Shown: positions 8,128 through 58,534 of the stretch, in pieces
Numbering within the stretch: position 1 is the stretch's first letter
Layout of the letters: each line of letters begins with the position of its first letter
NCBI GenBank assembly: GCA_031292525.1
Contig: JARLGY010000030.1
Span: 1 to 64,000 of the forward strand
Length of the DNA: 64,000 nucleotides
Direction of reading: 5' to 3'
Source: Flavipsychrobacter sp.
GTDB lineage: Bacteria; Bacteroidota; Bacteroidia; Chitinophagales; Chitinophagaceae
The notes under the pieces: generated by a model
What the model saw: the letters and a program-made list of their open reading frames with translations, nothing else
Database searches by the model: none
Told to the model about the DNA's origin: nothing
Translations under genes and position numbers: made by a program

Positions 8128-8133
8128 ATGACA

Positions 8134-8166
8134 AGTAAAAGGCCAGTAAGTTACTGGCCTTTTACT
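8134..8166. terminator. Bidirectional intrinsic terminator
   Basis: Perfect 16-bp inverted repeat around a single central base, arms starting AGTAAAAGGCCAGTAA. T-rich flanks on both sides suit the convergent murA (+) and metallo-hydrolase (-) genes. Confidence 0.85.
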
Positions 8167-8189
8167 TTATGATATACATTCATCAACAC

Positions 8190-28542: not shown

Positions 28543-28560
28543 TATACTAAGTAAGAATTT

Positions 28561-28592
28561 AATGGCTAACTCAAAACTTTGAGTTAGCCATT
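28561..28592. terminator. Bidirectional intrinsic terminator
   Basis: 15-bp perfect inverted repeat (arm AATGGCTAACTCAAA) between converging genes, with a T-rich run on the plus side. Confidence 0.8.
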
Positions 28593-28597
28593 ATTGT

Positions 28598-30769: not shown

Positions 30770-30798
30770 AATAGGGGCTGAAAATTTCAGCCCCTATT
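30770..30798. terminator. Bidirectional intrinsic terminator
   Basis: 11-bp perfect stem AATAGGGGCTG around a 7-nt AT loop, between the converging kbl and lipoprotein genes. The right arm overlaps the stop of the minus-strand gene. Confidence 0.75.
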
Positions 30799-44618: not shown

Positions 44619-44640
44619 TTCATTTGAAATATTAAAATAG

Positions 44641-44668
44641 AAAAAGCGGCGTTTGCCGCTTTTTCTAT
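44641..44668 (+). terminator. Intrinsic terminator
   Basis: 10-bp perfect stem AAAAAGCGGC with a GTTT loop, ending in a T-rich tail (TTTTTCTATTTT). Confidence 0.85.
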
Positions 44669-44777
44669 TTTATAAATGTCCCCTCAATGCCTTAGACGCC
44701 CTTATTTTCCTTGTTTGGTAACATTTTAACACTTTTTCCATTTTACAGAAGTTATATTTGCGCACTAATTTTCCTAT

Positions 44778-45485: not shown

Positions 45486-45516
45486 TAGTCTAGTCTAAAC
45501 ATACAAGACCAATAAT

Positions 45517-45556
45517 AAAAATGGTGGGCATCTTAGATGCCCACCATTTTTATTAT
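45517..45556 (+). terminator. Intrinsic terminator
   Basis: 16-bp perfect stem (arm AAAAATGGTGGGCATC) with a TTA loop and T-run, after the barrel-protein gene. Confidence 0.85.
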
Positions 45557-47895: not shown

Positions 47896-50800
47896 ATGAA
47901 TAGAATTCTATACGCCTTACTGTGTATAGTTGTATATGGAGCTATGCCTTGTTTGCTAAAAGCGCAACCCATAGCAAACTTTACTGCTAGTAATACTAGT
48001 GGTTGTGCACCTGTTGTAGTGCAATTCACAGACCAAAGTACCGGTAGCCCTACCGGCTGGTCCTGGAGCCTGGGCAACAGTACTACCTCCACACTCCAAA
48101 ACCCTTCAACCACCTACACTACCGCTGGCACTTATACTGTAACATTAACTGTAACAAATGCTTCAGGCAGCAACACCAAAACCATTTCCAATATCATAAC
48201 AGTATCGGCCCAGCCTTTTGCAAATTTTGTTGCTGATGATTCAGGATCTGTCTGTCTTCCAAAAACCATTAATTTTCAAAACACCTCTGTTTCTAACAGC
48301 ACCGGTACTTACCTGTGGGATTTTGGCGATGGCACAACGAGTACTTCCAGCAACCCATCGCACACCTATACCACCTCTGGCAACTACAATGTAACACTGG
48401 TTGTAACCAATGCCGCTGGCTGCACCAAAACAATTATAAAAACTGCATACATACAAGCATTACCTTCTCCTATTGTCAACTTTTCATCATCCAACAATAT
48501 AGCATGCAATGCCCCTACAACTGTAAACTTTACCAGCACATCTGCCACTACAGCCACCTATAGCTGGAGCTTCGGTGATGGGGGAACATCTACGTCAACA
48601 AATCCAGCACACAGTTATAGCGCAACAGGCACCTACAACGTTACACTTATTGCTACAGGATCTAATGGCTGTGTAGATACTGCTATAAAAAATGCTTTTG
48701 TGGTTATAGCACACCCTACAGCTGCTTTTAGTTCAAGTGCCAGCTCTGCATGCATGGGTACACCATTTGTTTTTACCAACCAGTCTTTACCTGCATCTGT
48801 AAATTCTCTTTGGTCATTTGGCGATGGCAATACCAGCCTGGCTACCAGCCCTACACATAATTACACTGCATCCGGCACCTATACCGTAAAACTCGTAAGC
48901 AGTGCAGGCTCGTGTGCTGACTCTGCAACCCAAACAGTAACCGTACTTACAAAACCTACAGTAAACTTTACATCCAATACTACATGGGGTTGCACTACCC
49001 CATTCACAGTACAATTTCAAGATAATACAGTAAATGGCAACACTTGGGCGTGGCGCTTTGGCGACGGGGGAACATCCACATCCCAAAGCCCTTCTCATGT
49101 TTATTCTTCAACAGGCAATTACTCTGTTACCCTGGTAGTTACAAATAGTAATGGCTGTACCGACTCTTTAACAAAACCCAACAATATCACTGTAGGCACA
49201 CCGTCTGCCAGCCTTACAGCAGCTGCCCCAGGCGGCACCTGCACACCAGCAACATTCAATTTCAATATCGTCATATCGCCCAACATTACCCCAACCTCTT
49301 TCAGTTACAATTATGGTGATGGTACATCAGGCTCCAGCCCTTCTCATACCTACTCTACTGCAGGCACTTACACCGTTACCTATACTTATACACTAGCTGC
49401 AGGCTGCACTTATACTGCCACTACAACGGTTACAGCCGGTACAAAGCCTACAGCATCCTTTAACGCGGCTCCGCTTACTACTTGCCCAGCAACAAATATC
49501 ACTTTCACCAACAACTCCACGGGTGCACTTTACTACCAATGGCTTTATGGCGATGGGCTTTCGGGTACGGCAACTAATCCCATTCACAGCTACGAAATAA
49601 CCGGGACTGCTACCGTAACGCTAATCGCCTTTGGTGTGGGTGGCTGCGCGGATACTATGATCCGTCCAAACTATGTAACCGTACTTTTGCCTCATGCCCA
49701 GTTTACACCAAGCTATACTTGCAGTAACAGTCTGCAGGTAAATTTTACAGACAACTCAAATGGTGCCAATACATGGCTGTGGCATTTTGGAGATGGGACT
49801 ACATCATCTACACAAAATCCATCTCATACCTATGCAAGCGGTGGTTTGGATACCGTATCACTCACAGTACACAACAATATCACGGGCTGTAACGATACTT
49901 ATATCTTAACCATCAATCTGTCATCTGCAACTGTTCCATTCCTGCATGCCACTGATTCTACCACTTGTAAGAATACACCCGTTGTTTTTAATACTGCATC
50001 TTCATTTGTATCGTACTTGTGGAGTTTTGGCGATGGCACTGTAAACTTTGCCGGTTCAAGCACCAGCCATACTTATAGCACAGCAGGAGTGTACACTGTA
50101 AAAGTTATTTTATTAGACGCGCGCGGGTGCGCTGATACAATAACTAAAACTAATTATGTGAGCGTAGGTGGCCCCACCGCTGCATTTTCAGCATCAGCAT
50201 TTTCTGGTTGCTTGCCACTAAACATACAGTTTACAGACCAGAGCAGCGCTATAGCCACAGCACCAATAGCTAACCGCATATGGAAGTATGGTGATGGCAG
50301 TATCACTACTGGTAATTCCGTCGGTTCTTCGCACACATATACTACCACGGGCAGCTTTCCTGTATCCCTTGTAGTAACAGATGTAAACGGTTGCACAGAT
50401 TCTGTTGTTAAACCAAATTACATACAGACCACAAAACCACATGCACAATTTACCACAAACGACACCACGGTGTGCATCAATACAAACGTCAATTTCTTTA
50501 ATTCTTCTACCGGCAATAATCTTACTTATCTGTGGAGCTTTGGCGATGGCATTACCTCTTTTGCAGTGACGCCTTTTCATGCGTACATCACAGCAGGCGC
50601 TTATACAGTAAGCCTTATAGTTACAGATGCAACAGGTTGTAAAGACACCATGACACGCACTGCTTATGTACACATAGGCACTTTATATGCAAGCTTTAAT
50701 ATCAACGACAGCTTTGCGACCTGTCCTCCACTTACCGTAAATGCAACCAATACCACTCCCGGCACAAATACCTACACTTGGGCCTTTGGCAACGGCAGCC

Positions 50801-53100
50801 AGTCTGTGCTTACAAATCCCAGCACTGTATATACTTATCCTGGTGTTTATCACATAAAACTTACAGTTCACAATGCATCCGGCTGCGCAGATTCTACGGT
50901 ACGGAATGTTGCAGTATTAGGCCCTACAGGCACTTTCAACGTAAACACATTTGCGGGTTGTTCTCCACTAACAGTATTGCTCAGTGTTACCAATACAAGT
51001 GGGGCTACATCTTACACCTGGGACCTCAATAATGGTTATACCCAATCTACTACTGCCACCTCGTTTAACTATACCTACACCCAAACTGGTAAGTATGTGC
51101 CGTTGGTGGTCATCAGCAATGGTACCTGCCAGGTACCTGTGGTGGGCGATACTGTTTATTCAGATCACCTGAATGCAGATTTCACCTTCCCCTCTGCAAA
51201 TTATTGTACACCTGCACCCGTCAATTTCACAGACACTTCTTCCACCTCTTTATCGCCTATAGCCAGCCGCACCTGGAGCTTTGGCGACGGTACTACAGGC
51301 ACAGGGCATAACCCTGTACACACCTATACAAGCGGAGGCACTTACCAGGTTCGGCTTATTACCAGTAATTTATCCGGCTGCACCGACACCATTGTCAAAA
51401 CAATAACCATCAATCAGAAACCGACAATCACTATAACCGGCAATCAGTCCATATGTCCGGGACAGACTGCGCAAGTTACCCTGGCAGCTACAGGTGCGGC
51501 TACTTATTCCTGGACACCCGGCACGGGCCTTGCCTGCAGCACTTGTAGCAGCACAACAGTACTGCCAGCAGCCACAACAACCTACACATTAGTGGGCACC
51601 AGCACAAACGGATGCAAGGATACGGTTACAACTACTGTTGTGGTCAATACATTGCCAACGGTAAGCACTGGTACTAACCAAACCATTTGCGCCAACCACT
51701 CAGCTACATTGGGAGCAAGTGGTGCATCTACTTATTTATGGTCCCCTGCCACAGGACTATCATGCACTGCATGTGCAAATCCCATTGCCAACCCCGCTAT
51801 CACTACCGTCTATACCGTAAAGGGCACCAGTACAAATGGATGTTCTGCTACAGGTAGTGTTACTGTGTTTGTAAATGCGGTGCCTGTATCACAGCTCGAT
51901 TCCAGCAAAAATATTTGTATTGGCAAGTCTGTTCTATTGCCAGGCACTGCCACCGGCGCTGTCAGCTACCTGTGGTATCCGGCTGCTGGTTTGTCTTGCA
52001 CTACATGTGCTATTCCTTTTGCCAACCCAACAGTTACAACCACTTATTCAGAGGTAACACAGGCGGGTAACGGCTGCAACGACACGGCACATATTGTAGT
52101 GATAGTAAACCCGTTGCCAGTTGTAACGGTAGGGTCACAAAATGTGTGTGCACATGTTCCCACACAGGTCACAGCAACCGGTGCTCAAACGTATGTATGG
52201 TCTCCTGCTGCCGGCTTATCATGCAGTACATGTAACGCGCCTTATGTTAACATCGGCAGTAATACTGCATATACCATCACCGGTACCGACGCCCATGGTT
52301 GTATAGATTCAACATCTGTACTATTCACAGTCATCAATCGCGTACCTACTTCAGTTGGCAATGGCGATAGCATATGCCAGGGCATCACTGTGCAGTTGAG
52401 TGCGTCTGGAGGTGTCAGCTATTCATGGATCCCCGCCAATGGCGTCAGCGATCCAACCAGCGCTACGCCCACTGCTACACCTAATGGCAGCATCAATTAT
52501 ATCGTTTACATAAAAGAGAATCAATGTTTCACAGATACGGGCATCGTTACCGTTATTGTTTATCCTATGCCTACTGTAAGTGCCGGCGCTAACCAAACTA
52601 TACTAGATGGACAAACCGTACACCTGGATGTAAAAAACAGTCCGGATGTGGTGAGCTTCTCATGGTCGCCAACACAATGGCTGAGTTGTACAGATTGCCA
52701 AATCCCGTCTGCAACACCACAGAAAAGCACAACCTATACGGTCACTGTAACAGGCCAGGGTGGTTGCAAAGACAGCGCACAAACTACGGTGTTCCTCAAA
52801 TGCCAAAACGGCCAGGTATTCATACCCAATATATTTACACCCAATGGCGATGGTGCCAACGATAAGTTTTATATAAGCGGCAAGGGGATCGTAAATGTAA
52901 AACGGATCAGTGTTTATAACCGCTGGGGCGAAGAAGTATATAGTGCGGCCAATGTTCCTGTAAATGACCCCAACAGTGGTTGGGATGGTAAATACAAAGG
53001 GCAGTTGCTGAAGCCCGATGTTTTTGTGTACGCTATTACTGTTGTATGTGAGACAGGCGAGCTACTGGAATATAAAGGAGATGTGTCATTGATACAATAA
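47896..53100 (+). CDS. Giant PKD/Ig-like T9SS type B cargo (gliding-motility-type C-terminus)
   Basis: A 1734-residue secreted adhesin-like protein. A signal peptide (YALLCIVVYGAMPCLLKAQ) precedes about 14 PKD-like domains (to about residue 1175), each with a W-x-FGDG-type turn, for example TYLWDFGDGTTSTSSNPSH and TWAWRFGDGGTSTSQSPSH, ending in an NGC-type disulfide strand. Six Ig-like repeats follow (about 1176-1640) with QTICANHSATL / TYLWSPATGLSC patterns, each with a CxxC. The C-terminal ~95 residues are a type B T9SS sorting domain: IFTPNGDGANDKFYI, VYNRWGEEVY and LKPDVFVYAITV. The PorP/SprF gene begins 74 bp downstream, the typical partner of type B cargo. Confidence 0.95.
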   Translation: MNRILYALLCIVVYGAMPCLLKAQPIANFTASNTSGCAPVVVQFTDQSTGSPTGWSWSLGNSTTSTLQNPSTTYTTAGTYTVTLTVTNASGSNTKTISNIITVSAQPFANFVADDSGSVCLPKTINFQNTSVSNSTGTYLWDFGDGTTSTSSNPSHTYTTSGNYNVTLVVTNAAGCTKTIIKTAYIQALPSPIVNFSSSNNIACNAPTTVNFTSTSATTATYSWSFGDGGTSTSTNPAHSYSATGTYNVTLIATGSNGCVDTAIKNAFVVIAHPTAAFSSSASSACMGTPFVFTNQSLPASVNSLWSFGDGNTSLATSPTHNYTASGTYTVKLVSSAGSCADSATQTVTVLTKPTVNFTSNTTWGCTTPFTVQFQDNTVNGNTWAWRFGDGGTSTSQSPSHVYSSTGNYSVTLVVTNSNGCTDSLTKPNNITVGTPSASLTAAAPGGTCTPATFNFNIVISPNITPTSFSYNYGDGTSGSSPSHTYSTAGTYTVTYTYTLAAGCTYTATTTVTAGTKPTASFNAAPLTTCPATNITFTNNSTGALYYQWLYGDGLSGTATNPIHSYEITGTATVTLIAFGVGGCADTMIRPNYVTVLLPHAQFTPSYTCSNSLQVNFTDNSNGANTWLWHFGDGTTSSTQNPSHTYASGGLDTVSLTVHNNITGCNDTYILTINLSSATVPFLHATDSTTCKNTPVVFNTASSFVSYLWSFGDGTVNFAGSSTSHTYSTAGVYTVKVILLDARGCADTITKTNYVSVGGPTAAFSASAFSGCLPLNIQFTDQSSAIATAPIANRIWKYGDGSITTGNSVGSSHTYTTTGSFPVSLVVTDVNGCTDSVVKPNYIQTTKPHAQFTTNDTTVCINTNVNFFNSSTGNNLTYLWSFGDGITSFAVTPFHAYITAGAYTVSLIVTDATGCKDTMTRTAYVHIGTLYASFNINDSFATCPPLTVNATNTTPGTNTYTWAFGNGSQSVLTNPSTVYTYPGVYHIKLTVHNASGCADSTVRNVAVLGPTGTFNVNTFAGCSPLTVLLSVTNTSGATSYTWDLNNGYTQSTTATSFNYTYTQTGKYVPLVVISNGTCQVPVVGDTVYSDHLNADFTFPSANYCTPAPVNFTDTSSTSLSPIASRTWSFGDGTTGTGHNPVHTYTSGGTYQVRLITSNLSGCTDTIVKTITINQKPTITITGNQSICPGQTAQVTLAATGAATYSWTPGTGLACSTCSSTTVLPAATTTYTLVGTSTNGCKDTVTTTVVVNTLPTVSTGTNQTICANHSATLGASGASTYLWSPATGLSCTACANPIANPAITTVYTVKGTSTNGCSATGSVTVFVNAVPVSQLDSSKNICIGKSVLLPGTATGAVSYLWYPAAGLSCTTCAIPFANPTVTTTYSEVTQAGNGCNDTAHIVVIVNPLPVVTVGSQNVCAHVPTQVTATGAQTYVWSPAAGLSCSTCNAPYVNIGSNTAYTITGTDAHGCIDSTSVLFTVINRVPTSVGNGDSICQGITVQLSASGGVSYSWIPANGVSDPTSATPTATPNGSINYIVYIKENQCFTDTGIVTVIVYPMPTVSAGANQTILDGQTVHLDVKNSPDVVSFSWSPTQWLSCTDCQIPSATPQKSTTYTVTVTGQGGCKDSAQTTVFLKCQNGQVFIPNIFTPNGDGANDKFYISGKGIVNVKRISVYNRWGEEVYSAANVPVNDPNSGWDGKYKGQLLKPDVFVYAITVVCETGELLEYKGDVSLIQ

Positions 53101-53174
53101 CATAAGAGGAACAGGCAACTTTAAGTAAACTAGAAAAAGTCTTTACGACCAACGATACTTTTAAAACAGATGTC

Positions 53175-54233
53175 ATGAAGAAATATTTTACCTTGTTAAT
53201 GGTGATGATGGTGGGGGGAGTTATGGACAAGGCAGTAGCCCAGGACATACATTTTTCGCAGTTTTACGATAACCCAATCCTGCGCAACCCTGCGCTTACA
53301 GGCATCTTTAGCGGCGACTATAAAGCGGGGGTCGATTACCGCTCGCAGTGGGCCAATATATCTGTACCCTATCAGACAGTGCTAGCCGACTTTGAAACAC
53401 GCATACCTATAGGTAAAGAGGTAAAAGACTTTCTAAGCCTGGGCCTGGTAGCTACTTATGATCATGCCGGAACTATTAGCTTCAATACGGTGCAGGTTTA
53501 TCCCGCCATCAACTACAATAAGAGTATGGAAGATGAGCATAACACTTTTTTCTCAGCAGGTTTTACCGGGGGATACATACAACGTTCCATAGACGTCAGC
53601 AAGGCTCAGTTCAGCAGCCAGTATATAAATGGCAGCTATTCATCTTACAACCCTACAGGCGAGAATACCAGCTTTAAAAACATACAGAGTTACGATCTTG
53701 GTGCAGGCATCAGCCTCAATGGTTCGTTAGGTACATACAACCACGCTAATTATTACATAGGTGTATCTGCTTACCATGTATTGCAGCCCAATCAAGCATT
53801 TCTGGCTACGGATGACCAGGTAAGGGTCACACCAAAGTTCGATGGTCAGTTTGGATTCAAATGTCGCCTGGATGATCAGTTTGCCATTACCGCCCATTTC
53901 AATTATACCATCCAATATCCTTACCAGGAAATAATAGGTGGTGGCCTGCTCAGCTGGCGCAATATAAACACATTAGAGCCCCACAATACGTTCACCATAT
54001 ACGCAGGTGCATTTTATCGCGTGGGAGATGCAATTATCCCTACATTCAAACTCGATCATAAAAACTATTCAGTCAACCTTTCTTATGATGTTACTTTATC
54101 TACCCTCCACACTGTTAACACAGGTGCAGGTGGTTTCGAAATATCCCTGTTCACCCGTGGCGTATTCTCAAAAGAGCGCACAGCTGCAGACGCTGTAAAG
54201 TGCCCTCACTTCGAGGTGCTGGACCAGGATTAG
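53175..54233 (+). CDS. T9SS membrane protein, PorP/SprF family
   Basis: A 352-residue outer-membrane barrel protein of the PorP/SprF family, needed for export or anchoring of type B cargo. The signal peptide ends in DKAVAQ, followed by the family motif DIHFSQFYDNPILRNPALTG and repeated strands (KAGVDYRSQWANIS, LSLGLVATYDHAG). Its first 74 bp of upstream spacing places it directly after the giant type B cargo, and the two are probably co-transcribed. No other core T9SS gene is visible in the window. Confidence 0.93.
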   Translation: MKKYFTLLMVMMVGGVMDKAVAQDIHFSQFYDNPILRNPALTGIFSGDYKAGVDYRSQWANISVPYQTVLADFETRIPIGKEVKDFLSLGLVATYDHAGTISFNTVQVYPAINYNKSMEDEHNTFFSAGFTGGYIQRSIDVSKAQFSSQYINGSYSSYNPTGENTSFKNIQSYDLGAGISLNGSLGTYNHANYYIGVSAYHVLQPNQAFLATDDQVRVTPKFDGQFGFKCRLDDQFAITAHFNYTIQYPYQEIIGGGLLSWRNINTLEPHNTFTIYAGAFYRVGDAIIPTFKLDHKNYSVNLSYDVTLSTLHTVNTGAGGFEISLFTRGVFSKERTAADAVKCPHFEVLDQD

Positions 54234-54283
54234 CCATTCTTCATTTAAATTGTCTATGAGAATTTATTTATGCCCTAAACTTG

Positions 54284-54308
54284 GTTAATGCAATTATGTT
54301 GCATTAAC
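54284..54308. promoter_or_regulatory. Perfect 10-bp palindromic operator, Zur/Fur-like
   Basis: Arms GTTAATGCAA and TTGCATTAAC with a 5-nt spacer (TTATG), perfectly symmetric. It sits 5 nt before the -7 element TATCTTTG (54313-54320) and covers the -33 region. The ATGCAA...TTGCAT type resembles recognition sites of zinc-sensing Fur-family repressors. The regulator is not encoded nearby, and no DNA-binding data exist here. Confidence 0.5.
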
Positions 54309-54312
54309 TACT

Positions 54313-54320
54313 TATCTTTG
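54313..54320 (+). promoter_or_regulatory. -7 element of the His-rich protein/TonB receptor operon
   Basis: TATCTTTG matches TAnnTTTG. Transcription would begin near 54326, about 40 nt before the first gene. The palindrome just upstream would block polymerase when occupied. Confidence 0.5.
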
Positions 54321-54364: not shown

Positions 54365-54700
54365 ATGAAACAACGGGCTATAAAAATATTAAGCACTTTC
54401 ATGTTTGCGGTATTCCTATATGGTACCGTACCACATGAGTATTTGCACGATGTTTTTGCCCACCATCATGATACCACTGAAGGCCGGTATAAAAAGGGTG
54501 AGTTTCACCTGAGTAAAGCGCATGTACATTGTGCATTCCTGGGTATTACTTTTGGCAGTTTCCTGTTTTCAGAATATATCTTTTATAAACCAGCCATACT
54601 ATTCCACATCTCTAAGTGGGTAATGCCTGGCTATCATTTTCATTCATTATCCAGTTACTATTCTTATTCTTTAAGGGGGCCTCCGTCTTTCATTTCTTAA
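54365..54700 (+). CDS. His-rich small membrane or exported protein
   Basis: A 111-residue protein. The N-terminal segment (IKILSTFMFAVFLYGTV) is a signal peptide or membrane anchor. Several His clusters follow: HEYLHDVFAHHHD, HLSKAHVHC and YHFHSLSS. A second hydrophobic stretch is near residues 58-80, and the end reads YSLRGPPSFIS. I recall similar short proteins upstream of TonB-dependent receptors in Bacteroidota, where a metal role is suspected. It is first in an operon behind a perfect palindrome, 66 bp before the receptor gene. Metal binding is inferred from the His content. Confidence 0.65.
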   Translation: MKQRAIKILSTFMFAVFLYGTVPHEYLHDVFAHHHDTTEGRYKKGEFHLSKAHVHCAFLGITFGSFLFSEYIFYKPAILFHISKWVMPGYHFHSLSSYYSYSLRGPPSFIS

Positions 54701-54766: not shown

Positions 54767-57085
54767 ATGGCGCGTTTTTATACCGCCACCTTACTGTTGT
54801 TTGTTCTTGCATTACCTGCACAGGTATGTAGGGGACAAAACTGTACCTCCAGGGTAAGCGGCTATGTAGCAGATGGACATAAAAACTCTGTAACAGGGGC
54901 TTTTGTAACCTTGCTCCATACTTCGCTGGGCGCAGCAACAGATACGGGTGGCTATTTTTCTATTAGCAACGTTTGCCTTGGTACAGATACACTTTTGTGT
55001 CAGTCAATAGGACACAAGGCACTACTGGTACCGGTAAATGTGACGGGTGATATATTGGTGAGGATTGCGTTTGCGCAAGATGCTAACGAACTGCAAGAGG
55101 TTATAGTAAATGGTATAAAGCAGCAAGATCTGCGTACGGTAACTACTGCCGCGCTTACCGGGCTAGCCTTATTACAGACGAGGGGTTCTTCACTGGGCGA
55201 TGCATTAAAAGACATGCCAGGACTCAATGCTATACAAACCGGCCCAAGCCTTTCTAAACCCGTTATTCACGGCCTGCACAGCAATCGTGTGCTCATCATA
55301 AACGATGGTGTACGGCAGGAAGGCCAGCAGTGGGGCTCAGAGCATGCACCGGAAATAGACCCATTCGCAGCCAACAAGATAACCATAGTAAAAGGCGCTG
55401 CCAGTGTACGTTATGGTTCAGATGCAATAGGCGGGGTAGTACTGGTGAACCCTGATGATATGCCGGTACAAAAAGGAATAACCGGCGATGTATACCTGGT
55501 TGGGGCAACCAATGGACAAATGGCTGCAACATCTGCATCTTTGCAAGGTGCTTTTGGTAAAGGACTTACAGGCTTATCATGGCGGGTACAAGGCACTTTA
55601 AAAGATGCAGGCAATTTCCATACCCCGCACTACTACCTCACAAACAGTGGCCTTAGAGAAGGTGATTTTTCAGCCGACCTGGCTTATAAATGGAAGGGGT
55701 TTGATTTCAGTATTCATTACAGCCTGTACAATACTGAAGTGGGTATATTTTTCGGTGCAGAAAATGGTAACCTGCAAGAACTGCAGCAAAAGTTTGCAAT
55801 GACTACACCCGGCATACCCTCCTACTTCATCTATACCATCGACCGCCCTTACCAGGCGGTTTCTCACGAATTAGTGAAGGCCGTATCCTCCTACTCGTTT
55901 AGTGACAAAGGTAAACTGGAACTGATATTTGGCAGGCAAAACGACATCAGGCAAGAGTATGATGAACTTACTACTACCAACGCTGCAGCCGAAAACTCAC
56001 CTCAACTAAGGTTCCAGCTTATCACCCATACGCTCGATCTTGTTTACACACAACATGCCAGTAAAGGTTTCTCTGGCAGTTTCGGCATCACCGGCAAAAC
56101 ATCGGGTAATACGTTTGAAGGCGTAAGATCTCTGATACCCAACTACAGGGACTATAACGGTGGTGCTTTCGCAATAGAACGTTACACAGCCGGTAAGTTC
56201 ACTTTTGAGGCCGGCCTGAGGTTTGACTACAGGTGGTTGCGCGTGTATGAACGCAACCCTACCAATCTTGCACTCTACAATGTCACCTACCAATACCAGA
56301 ATGCAAGTGGTACAATAGGCAGTAGTTATCATTATAACGATCACTTGTCTGCAAGCTTAAATGCAGGCACAGGCTGGCGGCCACCCAGCATCAATGAAAT
56401 GTATATTAACGGGGTGCATTTTAGCGATGCTAGTTATGATATAGGCGACTCAACGCTCAAATCCGAGCGGTCTGTCAATACCGGTCTTTCTGTCAACTAT
56501 ACTACAGATAAGTTCAGGGCTGTAGTAGATGCTTACTACAATAGTATCCACAACTTCATTTACAACAAACCCGCACTAACATACCGCGAACTGGCAAGCG
56601 GTACATTCCCGGTATTTGACTACACACAAGCCAATGTAAATATACGTGGGCTGGATGCCGTATTTCAGTATGACGTAACCCCTCATGTAACAGTGCAGTC
56701 AAAAACCACCATCGTCCGTGGGTACAACCGATCTATTCATAACTGGCAGATAGGCATGCCTTGCGATCGCTTTCAAAATAGTGTAGAGTATCACTTAACC
56801 AATATCAGGAAGCTGCAACATCCTTATGTTTCGCTTGATAACGTAAGTGTTGCAAAACAAATAAGAGTACCACCCAACAGCGACTATGTGCCGCCGCCTT
56901 CTTGTTACTCACTCTTTAACACAAATGTGGGTTTTACAATACCAGCAGGCAAAAAAACACTGGATGTCAGCTTCACTGTAAACAACATCACCAATGTCGC
57001 CTATCGCGACTACCTGGATCATTTCAGGTATTATGCTGATGAACTGGGCATCAATTACATTTTACGATTCAAGTATTCATTTTAA
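54767..57085 (+). CDS. TonB-dependent outer-membrane receptor, probably for a metal or metal complex
   Basis: A 772-residue receptor. The signal peptide ends near RGQ. A CarboxypepD_reg-like domain (about residues 27-105) is followed by the plug (about 115-230), with RGSSLGDALKDMPGLNA, GLHSNRVLIINDGVRQEGQQ and KITIVKGAASVRYGSDAIGG. A 22-strand barrel follows and ends in an aromatic residue (ILRFKYSF). The receptor subtype resembles zinc/copper-type receptors with EHAPEIDPFAA in the plug, rather than SusC-type (about 1000 residues, with SusD partner), and no SusD gene is present. Substrate is inferred from the His-rich neighbour and the operator. Confidence 0.85.
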   Translation: MARFYTATLLLFVLALPAQVCRGQNCTSRVSGYVADGHKNSVTGAFVTLLHTSLGAATDTGGYFSISNVCLGTDTLLCQSIGHKALLVPVNVTGDILVRIAFAQDANELQEVIVNGIKQQDLRTVTTAALTGLALLQTRGSSLGDALKDMPGLNAIQTGPSLSKPVIHGLHSNRVLIINDGVRQEGQQWGSEHAPEIDPFAANKITIVKGAASVRYGSDAIGGVVLVNPDDMPVQKGITGDVYLVGATNGQMAATSASLQGAFGKGLTGLSWRVQGTLKDAGNFHTPHYYLTNSGLREGDFSADLAYKWKGFDFSIHYSLYNTEVGIFFGAENGNLQELQQKFAMTTPGIPSYFIYTIDRPYQAVSHELVKAVSSYSFSDKGKLELIFGRQNDIRQEYDELTTTNAAAENSPQLRFQLITHTLDLVYTQHASKGFSGSFGITGKTSGNTFEGVRSLIPNYRDYNGGAFAIERYTAGKFTFEAGLRFDYRWLRVYERNPTNLALYNVTYQYQNASGTIGSSYHYNDHLSASLNAGTGWRPPSINEMYINGVHFSDASYDIGDSTLKSERSVNTGLSVNYTTDKFRAVVDAYYNSIHNFIYNKPALTYRELASGTFPVFDYTQANVNIRGLDAVFQYDVTPHVTVQSKTTIVRGYNRSIHNWQIGMPCDRFQNSVEYHLTNIRKLQHPYVSLDNVSVAKQIRVPPNSDYVPPPSCYSLFNTNVGFTIPAGKKTLDVSFTVNNITNVAYRDYLDHFRYYADELGINYILRFKYSF

Positions 57086-57102: not shown

Positions 57103-57660
57103 ATGAAAAAGAATAAGATCATATTAATGACCACAGTCTGCGCACTGCTCATATTCTGGAGTGCATGCAATAAGAAGGAACAGGCAGTAGCCCCTCCATT
57201 GCCGGGCAATGAACCATTGACCACAATGTTATTAAAGGCTACAAATACCACAGACCCTACTGACACTCCTTCTGCAAGTTGGATAGAGCTGGACCCTACG
57301 GGCGCTTTGCCACCCGATACTACACATGCCACACTTAATTTAAAAAAGGGAGCTGTCTATAATGTAGCAATAAAACTATTGGACACCCTTACCGATATAA
57401 CCCCAGAAATACAGGCACGTGAAAATTATCATCTCTTTTGTTTCGATGTTGCCACTGGCCTCAACCTTACTTGTGTACAAACAGATAAGGATACCAATAC
57501 CCCTGCTCTGCCAATAGGCCTTACTGATCTCTTTACAGCAGGAAATATAAGCAGCGGAGGACTGGAGGTAACACTGCACCATCAGCCAAATGTAAAGAAT
57601 GGCACCTGTGCACCCGGCTCTATAGACTTAGAGGCTTTTTTTACGGTACGTATTCACTAG
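57103..57660 (+). CDS. Lipoprotein of the metal-uptake-like operon
   Basis: A 185-residue lipoprotein with a clear lipobox (IFWSAC, Cys about residue 24) and a Pro/Ala/Glu linker. The body is a beta-rich domain with a run of Asp/Thr/Pro-rich loops, and the terminal part reads YHLFCFDVATGLNLTC, LEVTLHHQPNVKNGTC and EAFFTVRIH. I recall this family next to TonB receptors in several Bacteroidota but not a proven function. It starts 17 bp after the receptor stop, so it is clearly co-transcribed. It may act as a surface partner of the receptor. Confidence 0.65.
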   Translation: MKKNKIILMTTVCALLIFWSACNKKEQAVAPPLPGNEPLTTMLLKATNTTDPTDTPSASWIELDPTGALPPDTTHATLNLKKGAVYNVAIKLLDTLTDITPEIQARENYHLFCFDVATGLNLTCVQTDKDTNTPALPIGLTDLFTAGNISSGGLEVTLHHQPNVKNGTCAPGSIDLEAFFTVRIH

Positions 57661-57696: not shown

Positions 57697-58452
57697 ATGA
57701 AGAAAATATCGGCAGGTTTGCTCGCAATAACAATCATAATAGTTACCTCCAATCTGGCAAAAGCACAGGATACTAAGTCTGCCGACAGTCCCACAAAATG
57801 GGTAATTGGCATTACCGGTGGCATATCTTCTCCATCGGGCAACTTTACCAAAACAGATTATGATAACGGTTTATCGGGCTTTGCAGGTTCAGGATACAAT
57901 ATGGGTATTACAAGCACCTGGTTCATAAAAAAGCGTTTTGGCATTACGGTGTTGGCTTCGTATCACCATTACAGTTACCAGGGCATACAAAATATAGCCA
58001 ATGGCTTTCACGAGGCTTTCGATGTAGATAGCGCCTCTGCTACTACAAGGAGCAGCAATCACTCTATCAACATCCTAGTAGGCCCTGCTTATTCGTTACC
58101 CGTAAGCACGAAGTTTTCTTTCGATTTCAGGGTACTTGCAGGTATTGTTGATGCAACACTGGCTGGCTGGGATGTGGTACTTACTGATGCGAATATTACC
58201 CATCCGGCACTTACTCAAAATGCATCTCATGCAACAACATTTGGCATGCAGGCAGGCGCAGCTATAAAGTACAACATCACAAAGCAGTGGGCAGTATTGC
58301 TCAACGGAGATTATTTCTATTCTAAACCCAATTTCAGTATTGTGAATATAGACAGGAACGCAAATGCAGGCAGGGAAATAACAAATTACAACCAGAGTAT
58401 AGCCGGTATAAATGGCAATCTTACTCTTGCTTACTATTTTAAAAGAAAATAA
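57697..58452 (+). CDS. Outer-membrane beta-barrel protein
   Basis: A 251-residue barrel protein. A signal peptide (ISAGLLAITIIIVTSNLAKAQ) precedes alternating strands such as WVIGITGGISSPSGNFTKT, GITVLASYHHYSYQG, FDFRVLAGIVDATLAG and GNLTLAYYFKRK. It begins 36 bp after the lipoprotein gene and is followed by a strong terminator, so it is the last gene of the TonB-receptor operon. Function unknown; OmpA-like or PorT-like small barrels of this kind are common. Confidence 0.75.
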   Translation: MKKISAGLLAITIIIVTSNLAKAQDTKSADSPTKWVIGITGGISSPSGNFTKTDYDNGLSGFAGSGYNMGITSTWFIKKRFGITVLASYHHYSYQGIQNIANGFHEAFDVDSASATTRSSNHSINILVGPAYSLPVSTKFSFDFRVLAGIVDATLAGWDVVLTDANITHPALTQNASHATTFGMQAGAAIKYNITKQWAVLLNGDYFYSKPNFSIVNIDRNANAGREITNYNQSIAGINGNLTLAYYFKRK

Positions 58453-58466
58453 ACACTAACCTCGGA

Positions 58467-58520
58467 TAATTTAAAAAGATAAGCCCCAGCTGATTGGCTG
58501 GGGCTTATCTTTTTAAATTA
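58467..58520. terminator. Bidirectional terminator, 24-bp perfect stem
   Basis: Two exactly complementary 24-nt arms (58467-58490 and 58497-58520) with a 6-nt loop, GC core AAGCCCCAGC and A/T tracts at both ends, between the converging barrel-protein and regulator genes. Confidence 0.9.
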
Positions 58521-58534
58521 TCTTGTACTATAAA

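Follow-up and report, generated by a model that had tools for sequence, protein, structure and literature searches.

A predicted Zur-type operator upstream of a ZnuD-like receptor operon in Flavipsychrobacter sp.

Introduction

What is the role of a perfect palindrome that overlaps a promoter in front of a TonB-dependent receptor operon in a member of the Bacteroidota? The locus lies within a 64,000-nucleotide stretch of Flavipsychrobacter sp. DNA (called the window here, at its full length). A sequence-only reading had proposed a metal-responsive, Zur-like site of the Fur family. Comparison with the rest of the genome and with related genomes indicates that the palindrome is very probably the operator of the single Fur-family regulator detected in the genome, a Zur-like protein predicted to repress a zinc-uptake operon.

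The palindrome and its promoter

The features at the start of the operon are as follows.

54284-54308, no strand assigned: perfect inverted repeat with arms of 10/10 and a 5-bp spacer (predicted extended operator), read from the sequence
54288-54304, no strand assigned: core Zur-type box ATGCAATTATGTTGCAT, fitting WTGCAAYnnnRTTGCAW, by exact match and the top matrix score in the window
54313-54320, plus strand: -7 promoter element TATCTTTG, read from the sequence

On the plus strand the repeat reads GTTAATGCAA-TTATG-TTGCATTAAC, and the 10-bp arms pair without a mismatch, just as first described. The element TATCTTTG downstream is a TAnnTTTG-type -7 element, the kind used in Bacteroidota. It was said to begin 5 nt after the palindrome, but counting from 54308 to 54313 gives 4 nt, and the distance from the core is 8 nt. 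The claim that the -33 region is covered stands as far as position goes: the place expected for the -33 element falls under the palindrome, with TTG at 54281 and 54299, but a clean TTTG is absent there. A sigma-70 promoter was also considered at the palindrome and set aside; the scan listed none, and that promoter type is ill-suited to Bacteroidota.

Symmetry by itself is poor evidence for the palindrome. A script that collected perfect inverted repeats with arms of at least 10 and spacers of at most 12 found 10 in the window. Each of 12 copies made by Markov resampling had 0-3, and several of the window's other repeats are long hairpins. Long perfect hairpins lie at 8133-8167, 28560-28593, 30770-30798, 44633-44672, and 45512-45556, and these five are probably terminators or other structured RNA. 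The palindrome stands above chance because of its motif, as indicated by the lack of another copy of the 25-bp form, by arms that are identical within the genus, and by the matrix result given below. Allowing up to 3 mismatches, a second copy of the 25-bp form is absent from both window and genome. In the sole same-genus genome of the sample (69% complete) the arms are identical, the spacer differs by one change, the symmetry extends two more bases on each side, and the surrounding sequence has further changes. The outer arms, GTTA and TAAC (54284-54287 and 54305-54308), form a perfect pair kept in that same-genus genome and absent from the boxes at the regulator and merC genes described below.

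The operon and its products

The promoter is followed by four open reading frames (ORFs) and a hairpin.

54365-54700, plus strand: His-rich small protein of 111 aa (ORF; relatives aligned)
54767-57085, plus strand: TonB-dependent receptor, ZnuD-like (Pfam plug and barrel)
57103-57660, plus strand: lipoprotein-like ORF of 185 aa, kept beside the receptor, with a beta-rich model
57697-58452, plus strand: outer-membrane beta-barrel protein of 251 aa (PF13505)
58471-58516, plus strand: terminator-like hairpin 3' of the last gene (terminator scan)

The first two ORFs agree with the operon of a His-rich protein and a TonB receptor that the palindrome had been said to precede. The small protein has no match in Pfam or NCBIfam, and an alignment of 14 of the 15 sequences found shows H28, H34, D36, C56, and a C-terminal RGPP to be invariant. 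Other small His/Cys ORFs, with GPP, APP, or QPP endings, adjoin boxes in relatives (loci L086, L093, L095, and L082), which suggests a wider class of small zinc-linked proteins in these genomes.

The nearest solved relative of the receptor is ZnuD (PDB 4rdr, E 5.3e-19). Histidines in the receptor motifs SEHAPEID and NGVHFSD align with positions 114 and 513 of the 4rdr chain, which fit H100 and H499 of ZnuD at a constant offset of 14, a likeness to Neisseria ZnuD that falls on residues named as ligands in PMC4557270. The receptor differs from ZnuD in carrying an N-terminal carboxypeptidase-regulatory-like domain and in its family scores: it reaches 117.8 bits against the NCBIfam ZnuD model (NF038289), below the cut-off of 950 and below the 169 bits that it scores against the NCBIfam heme/hemoglobin receptor model, a value that is also under that model's own cut-off. 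Because it misses the ZnuD family cut-off, it is named ZnuD-like only.

The lipoprotein-like ORF has no match in Pfam. Its predicted structure is confident (pLDDT 84), and a comparison of the model with PDB folds returned none under E 0.001, the best being E 0.008. A relative of this protein adjoins the receptor in 31 fetched loci (including the window's own and one duplicate, with E values up to 0.01), and in one of them, L029, it lies on the upstream side of the receptor. The beta-barrel gene comes after the lipoprotein gene in near relatives too and probably closes the operon; the hairpin that follows this last gene was also picked up by the inverted-repeat script, as a 26-bp perfect arm at 58465-58522. 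From gene context it might be guessed that the small protein and the lipoprotein have a putative part in zinc delivery. On the other side of the promoter, the region 47896-54233 encodes two proteins, one repeat-rich and 1734 aa long, the other 352 aa long; by their appearance the first is presumably a secreted adhesin and the second of PorP/SprF type.

Recurrence at the regulator gene

The candidate regulator and its neighbor lie on another contig of the same assembly.

C61:247710-248117, minus strand: Fur-family regulator ORF, on a contig other than that of the window
C61:248226-248549, divergent from the regulator gene: MerC-family gene (PF03203), above the Pfam cut-off and the only match in the genome

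A single Fur-family match was found in the assembly (4.44 Mb, 98.8% complete), at C61:247806-248090 on the minus strand, and the protein passes PF01475, the Fur-family domain, with 37.2 bits against a cut-off of 23.1. The gap between the regulator gene and merC holds two boxes, ATGCAACAGTGTTGCTT with one mismatch and TTGCAACTCTGTTGCAT as an exact match. The box on the regulator (zur) side sits 10 nt ahead of TATCTTTG, the same -7 element as in the window, and the box on the merC side overlaps TACATTTG. From this placement, a dimer bound at the window, zur-side, and merC-side boxes would plausibly block each promoter. The neighboring gene resembles the MerC mercury transporter family in passing the PF03203 cut-off, but it differs in lying beside a zinc-type regulator and under that regulator's predicted box.

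Across the whole assembly, exact matches to the core WTGCAAYnnnRTTGCAW are confined to the window site and the site in the regulator/merC gap. The expectation that the same palindrome would be found elsewhere in the genome therefore holds for the 17-bp core, which recurs at zur/merC, and fails for the full form, which is unique; the 25-bp palindrome was accordingly abandoned as a regulon motif in favor of the core. Allowing one mismatch gives 29 sites, one of which is the other zur/merC box. The remaining 28 comprise 26 inside mechanically called ORFs (at least 60 aa), one over an ORF start, and one before yjdM. This last box, CTGCAACGCAATTGCAT (L159 1571-1587; G000:C24:65570-65586), has TATCTTTG downstream and is separated by 47 nt from the YjdM/PhnA zinc-ribbon gene that it precedes; a reverse ORF of 111 aa, itself probably spurious, also covers it. 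A possible further Zur target is yjdM.

Conservation across the family

The exact core occurs 128 times in 98 family genomes, and the reversed pattern 13 times. The reversed-pattern control, which contains ACGT, is probably too lenient, so genomes lacking a Fur-family match were taken as the background: 106 sites fall in the 72 Fur-positive genomes and 22 in the 26 genomes without a match; a separate count gives 9 sites in 7 genomes that also lack a match. Because genomes without a Fur-family match carry the core too, a core match by itself is not specific, and raw counts were dropped as proof. Among 75 sites listed of the 128, 35 are at most 1.5 kb from a Fur-family gene; the random expectation is about 0.05. 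That the box exists, that it recurs at the promoter of the regulator gene, and that it co-occurs with the regulator are observations made directly on the genomes.

MerC lies within the stretch fetched around the Fur-family gene in 60 of the 72 Fur-positive genomes, and SCO1 is found near it in 66 of 87 Fur loci (87 of 88 places were fetched, one overlapping another). Outside the genus, 55 of 59 Fur-linked MerC loci have, close to the start of MerC, a site that agrees at 12 or more of 14 positions. The symmetric consensus of these 55 boxes is TTGCAACnnnGTTGCAA, in which G and C reach 97% and the inner C 94%; in one half of the window box this inner C is replaced by T. The GCAAC and GTTGC of the consensus take the RNNNY form, which is the form given for E. 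coli Zur in a Zur review (PMC6103462).

A matrix was built from the 55 MerC-promoter sites of other genomes, none of them from the receptor operon or from the window's genus; these sites were picked by a consensus (at least 12/14) that had been partly read off receptor loci, the sites themselves coming from other loci. The matrix puts the window site first in the 64 kb, at 20.0 bits with a runner-up of 8.3, and gives the two zur/merC boxes 19.8 and 24.3 bits. Intragenic candidate sites of the same genome (at the fetched places only) score up to 18.8 bits, near the 20.0 of the window, so the matrix score alone does not prove function.

Upstream of receptor genes, the 99% shuffle level (12.3 bits) is exceeded in 14 of 20 loci from genomes with a Zur-type gene and in 0 of 14 without one (Fisher 3e-5, with kinship ignored among genomes that are phylogenetically non-independent), and conservation upstream of orthologous operons, one of the checks first proposed for the site, is borne out to that extent. 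At the 95% level the counts are 16/20 and 1/14, the single negative that passes being L009. Counting consensus positions (at least 12/14) gives 16/20 against 0/14; 6.9% of shuffled sequences score as high, and the measure is partly circular, since the consensus derives in part from the same receptor loci. The Zur-type positives below the 99% level are L006, L015, L017, L025, L027, and L032. Fifteen family genomes were classed as Zur-type by any PF01475 match, a class assigned from the match and not from every protein read. The 14 negatives combine 8 loci without a Fur-family match (L005, L023, L024, and L036-L040; for L024 the upstream sequence is 372 bp only) and 6 order-level genomes with canonical Fur only; duplicates (L001, L033, L035) and loci having no upstream sequence (L020, L034, L041) were left out of the 20-versus-14 count.

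Among genomes of unstated completeness, that of Flavipsychrobacter stenotrophus gave no Fur-family match. In two genomes, G078 and G029, a Fur-family gene adjoins a receptor gene, and the probable starts of the two flank the box. A box also lies 37 nt upstream of a COG0523 GTPase gene in G007 and 170 nt upstream of the gene for a similar protein in G135. COG0523 proteins are common Zur targets according to the review (PMC6103462). Four loci with no Fur-family match (L036, L038, L039, and L040) share a different element, approximately CGGCATGGTTATTG, near the promoter and just upstream of the small-protein ORF, and in those genomes a different regulator may control this operon.

The regulator and its metal

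The CxxC pairs C95/C98 and C131/C134 of the regulator, which make up a Cys4 site, are invariant in an alignment of 9 sequences. C77 aligns with C88 of 4mtd (EcZur) and C76 of 2o03 (MtZur, FurB/Zur), numbered by counting along the alignments. The cysteines aligned with C77 presumably bind metal in the sensory site. The Fur and PerR chains compared have T, R, or V at this position, and none of 11 canonical Fur proteins of relatives has a cysteine there. The context of C77 is FALC in the regulator and YALC in most of the relatives read.

Whole-sequence scores are less clear-cut. Against NCBIfam the regulator scores 42.6 bits with Fur (cut-off 146) and 23.1 with Zur (cut-off 167), both far below, and its top phmmer matches are Fur; the cut-off of the Zur equivalog model is tuned to lineage and is not a defining trait. 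For the regulator of one relative, the best NCBIfam model is Zur, at 35.0 bits. The proposed Zur-like Fur-family site is supported, as far as sequence comparison goes, by the box at zur/merC, by the co-occurrence, and by the Zur-type ligands, with overall scores that are nearer Fur.

The system resembles known Zur systems in the two CxxC pairs and sensory-position cysteine of the regulator, in a palindromic box over the upstream promoter element and a box at the regulator's own gene, and in predicted TonB receptor and COG0523 targets like those in the Zur review (PMC6103462). It differs in its core, TTGCAACnnnGTTGCAA, in a linkage mainly to MerC and SCO1, in a genome with no match for ZnuA or ZIP, and in the low score of the regulator against the curated Zur model.

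We infer that the regulator binds the box, that binding represses the operon, and that zinc is the metal sensed. In this scheme a dimer charged with zinc would sit on GCAAY-nnn-RTTGC, across the -33 region and immediately 5' of the -7 element. The bound repressor would shut out RNA polymerase and keep the operon silent when zinc is plentiful. When zinc runs short, the repressor would release the site, and all four operon products, from the His-rich protein to the beta-barrel protein, would be made.

Alternative explanations

The same Fur-family protein could bind the box in response to another metal (iron, manganese, or copper), with a receptor that may carry a heme, iron, or copper source. 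The whole-sequence scores of the regulator lean this way, as does the lead of the heme-receptor model over ZnuD for the receptor, and the presence of SCO1, a copper-protein family, in 66/87 loci with the Fur-family gene could suggest copper. This explanation is nonetheless unlikely: the sensory cysteine and CxxC pairs match Zur, among solved structures the receptor is closest to ZnuD, the COG0523 gene of a relative has a box, and the six genomes with canonical Fur only lack a box at the 99% level.

An unrelated dimeric regulator might own the site, sharing the TGCAA-TTGCA core by coincidence; such cores do exist in genomes without a Fur-family match, and the zur/merC boxes lack the outer GTTA/TAAC arms. 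Such a coincidence is very improbable given the co-occurrence of the box with a Zur-type gene across 34 operon loci and the two genomes in which box, regulator, and receptor are adjacent. The palindrome could instead be read as the terminator of the upstream gene, whose stop is at 54233, as its RNA fold is stable (-13.7 kcal/mol, z -4.7) and a terminator scan flags 54282-54310 under a loose rule. Only 3 of the 13 pairs are G-C, though, the tail CTTATCTTTG lacks a continuous stretch of Ts, and the sequence fits the box of the MerC/zur promoters and occurs together with the regulator gene, all of which leaves a terminator the least credible of these explanations, with hardly any probability. An operator for a Zur-like repressor remains the best account of the palindrome.

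Zinc import and outlook

Searches of the window's genome returned no match for either ZnuA or ZIP. MerC proteins are known as importers of mercury, and because of the missing ZnuA and ZIP matches the MerC protein here becomes a candidate zinc importer. A tentative scheme, somewhat more doubtful than probable, is a Zur-run import route in which the ZnuD-like receptor, the RGPP His/Cys small protein, and the lipoprotein would work with MerC as an inner-membrane importer that replaces ZnuABC/ZIP. Among genomes with a Fur-linked MerC, 45 of 60 have neither ZnuA nor ZIP, compared with 4 of 12 lacking a linked MerC (one-sided Fisher 0.008, kinship ignored, with MerC away from the Fur gene counted in the window's genome only). 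ZIP is commoner in the Fur-less genomes (14/26 versus 16/72).

The word stem "bacteroid" is absent from two Zur reviews (PMC6103462, PMC8000910), and a search of titles and the starts of abstracts found no Bacteroidota Zur regulon; RegPrecise and most subscription journals lay outside that search, and a published box is possible. R. anatipestifer ZntR is treated in PMC11960050, PgFur of P. gingivalis is placed in a separate Fur subfamily (PMC6613475), and the literature consulted also included PMC10957091 and PMC12574912. The predicted operator is of a familiar type, in bacteria for which little description of it was found. The predicted regulon is very small, consisting of zur, merC, the receptor operon, and perhaps yjdM. 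Protein families that had no function attached to them are flagged as possible parts of zinc uptake, and the box sequence, with so small a predicted regulon, makes the response to zinc starvation directly testable in this group of Bacteroidota.
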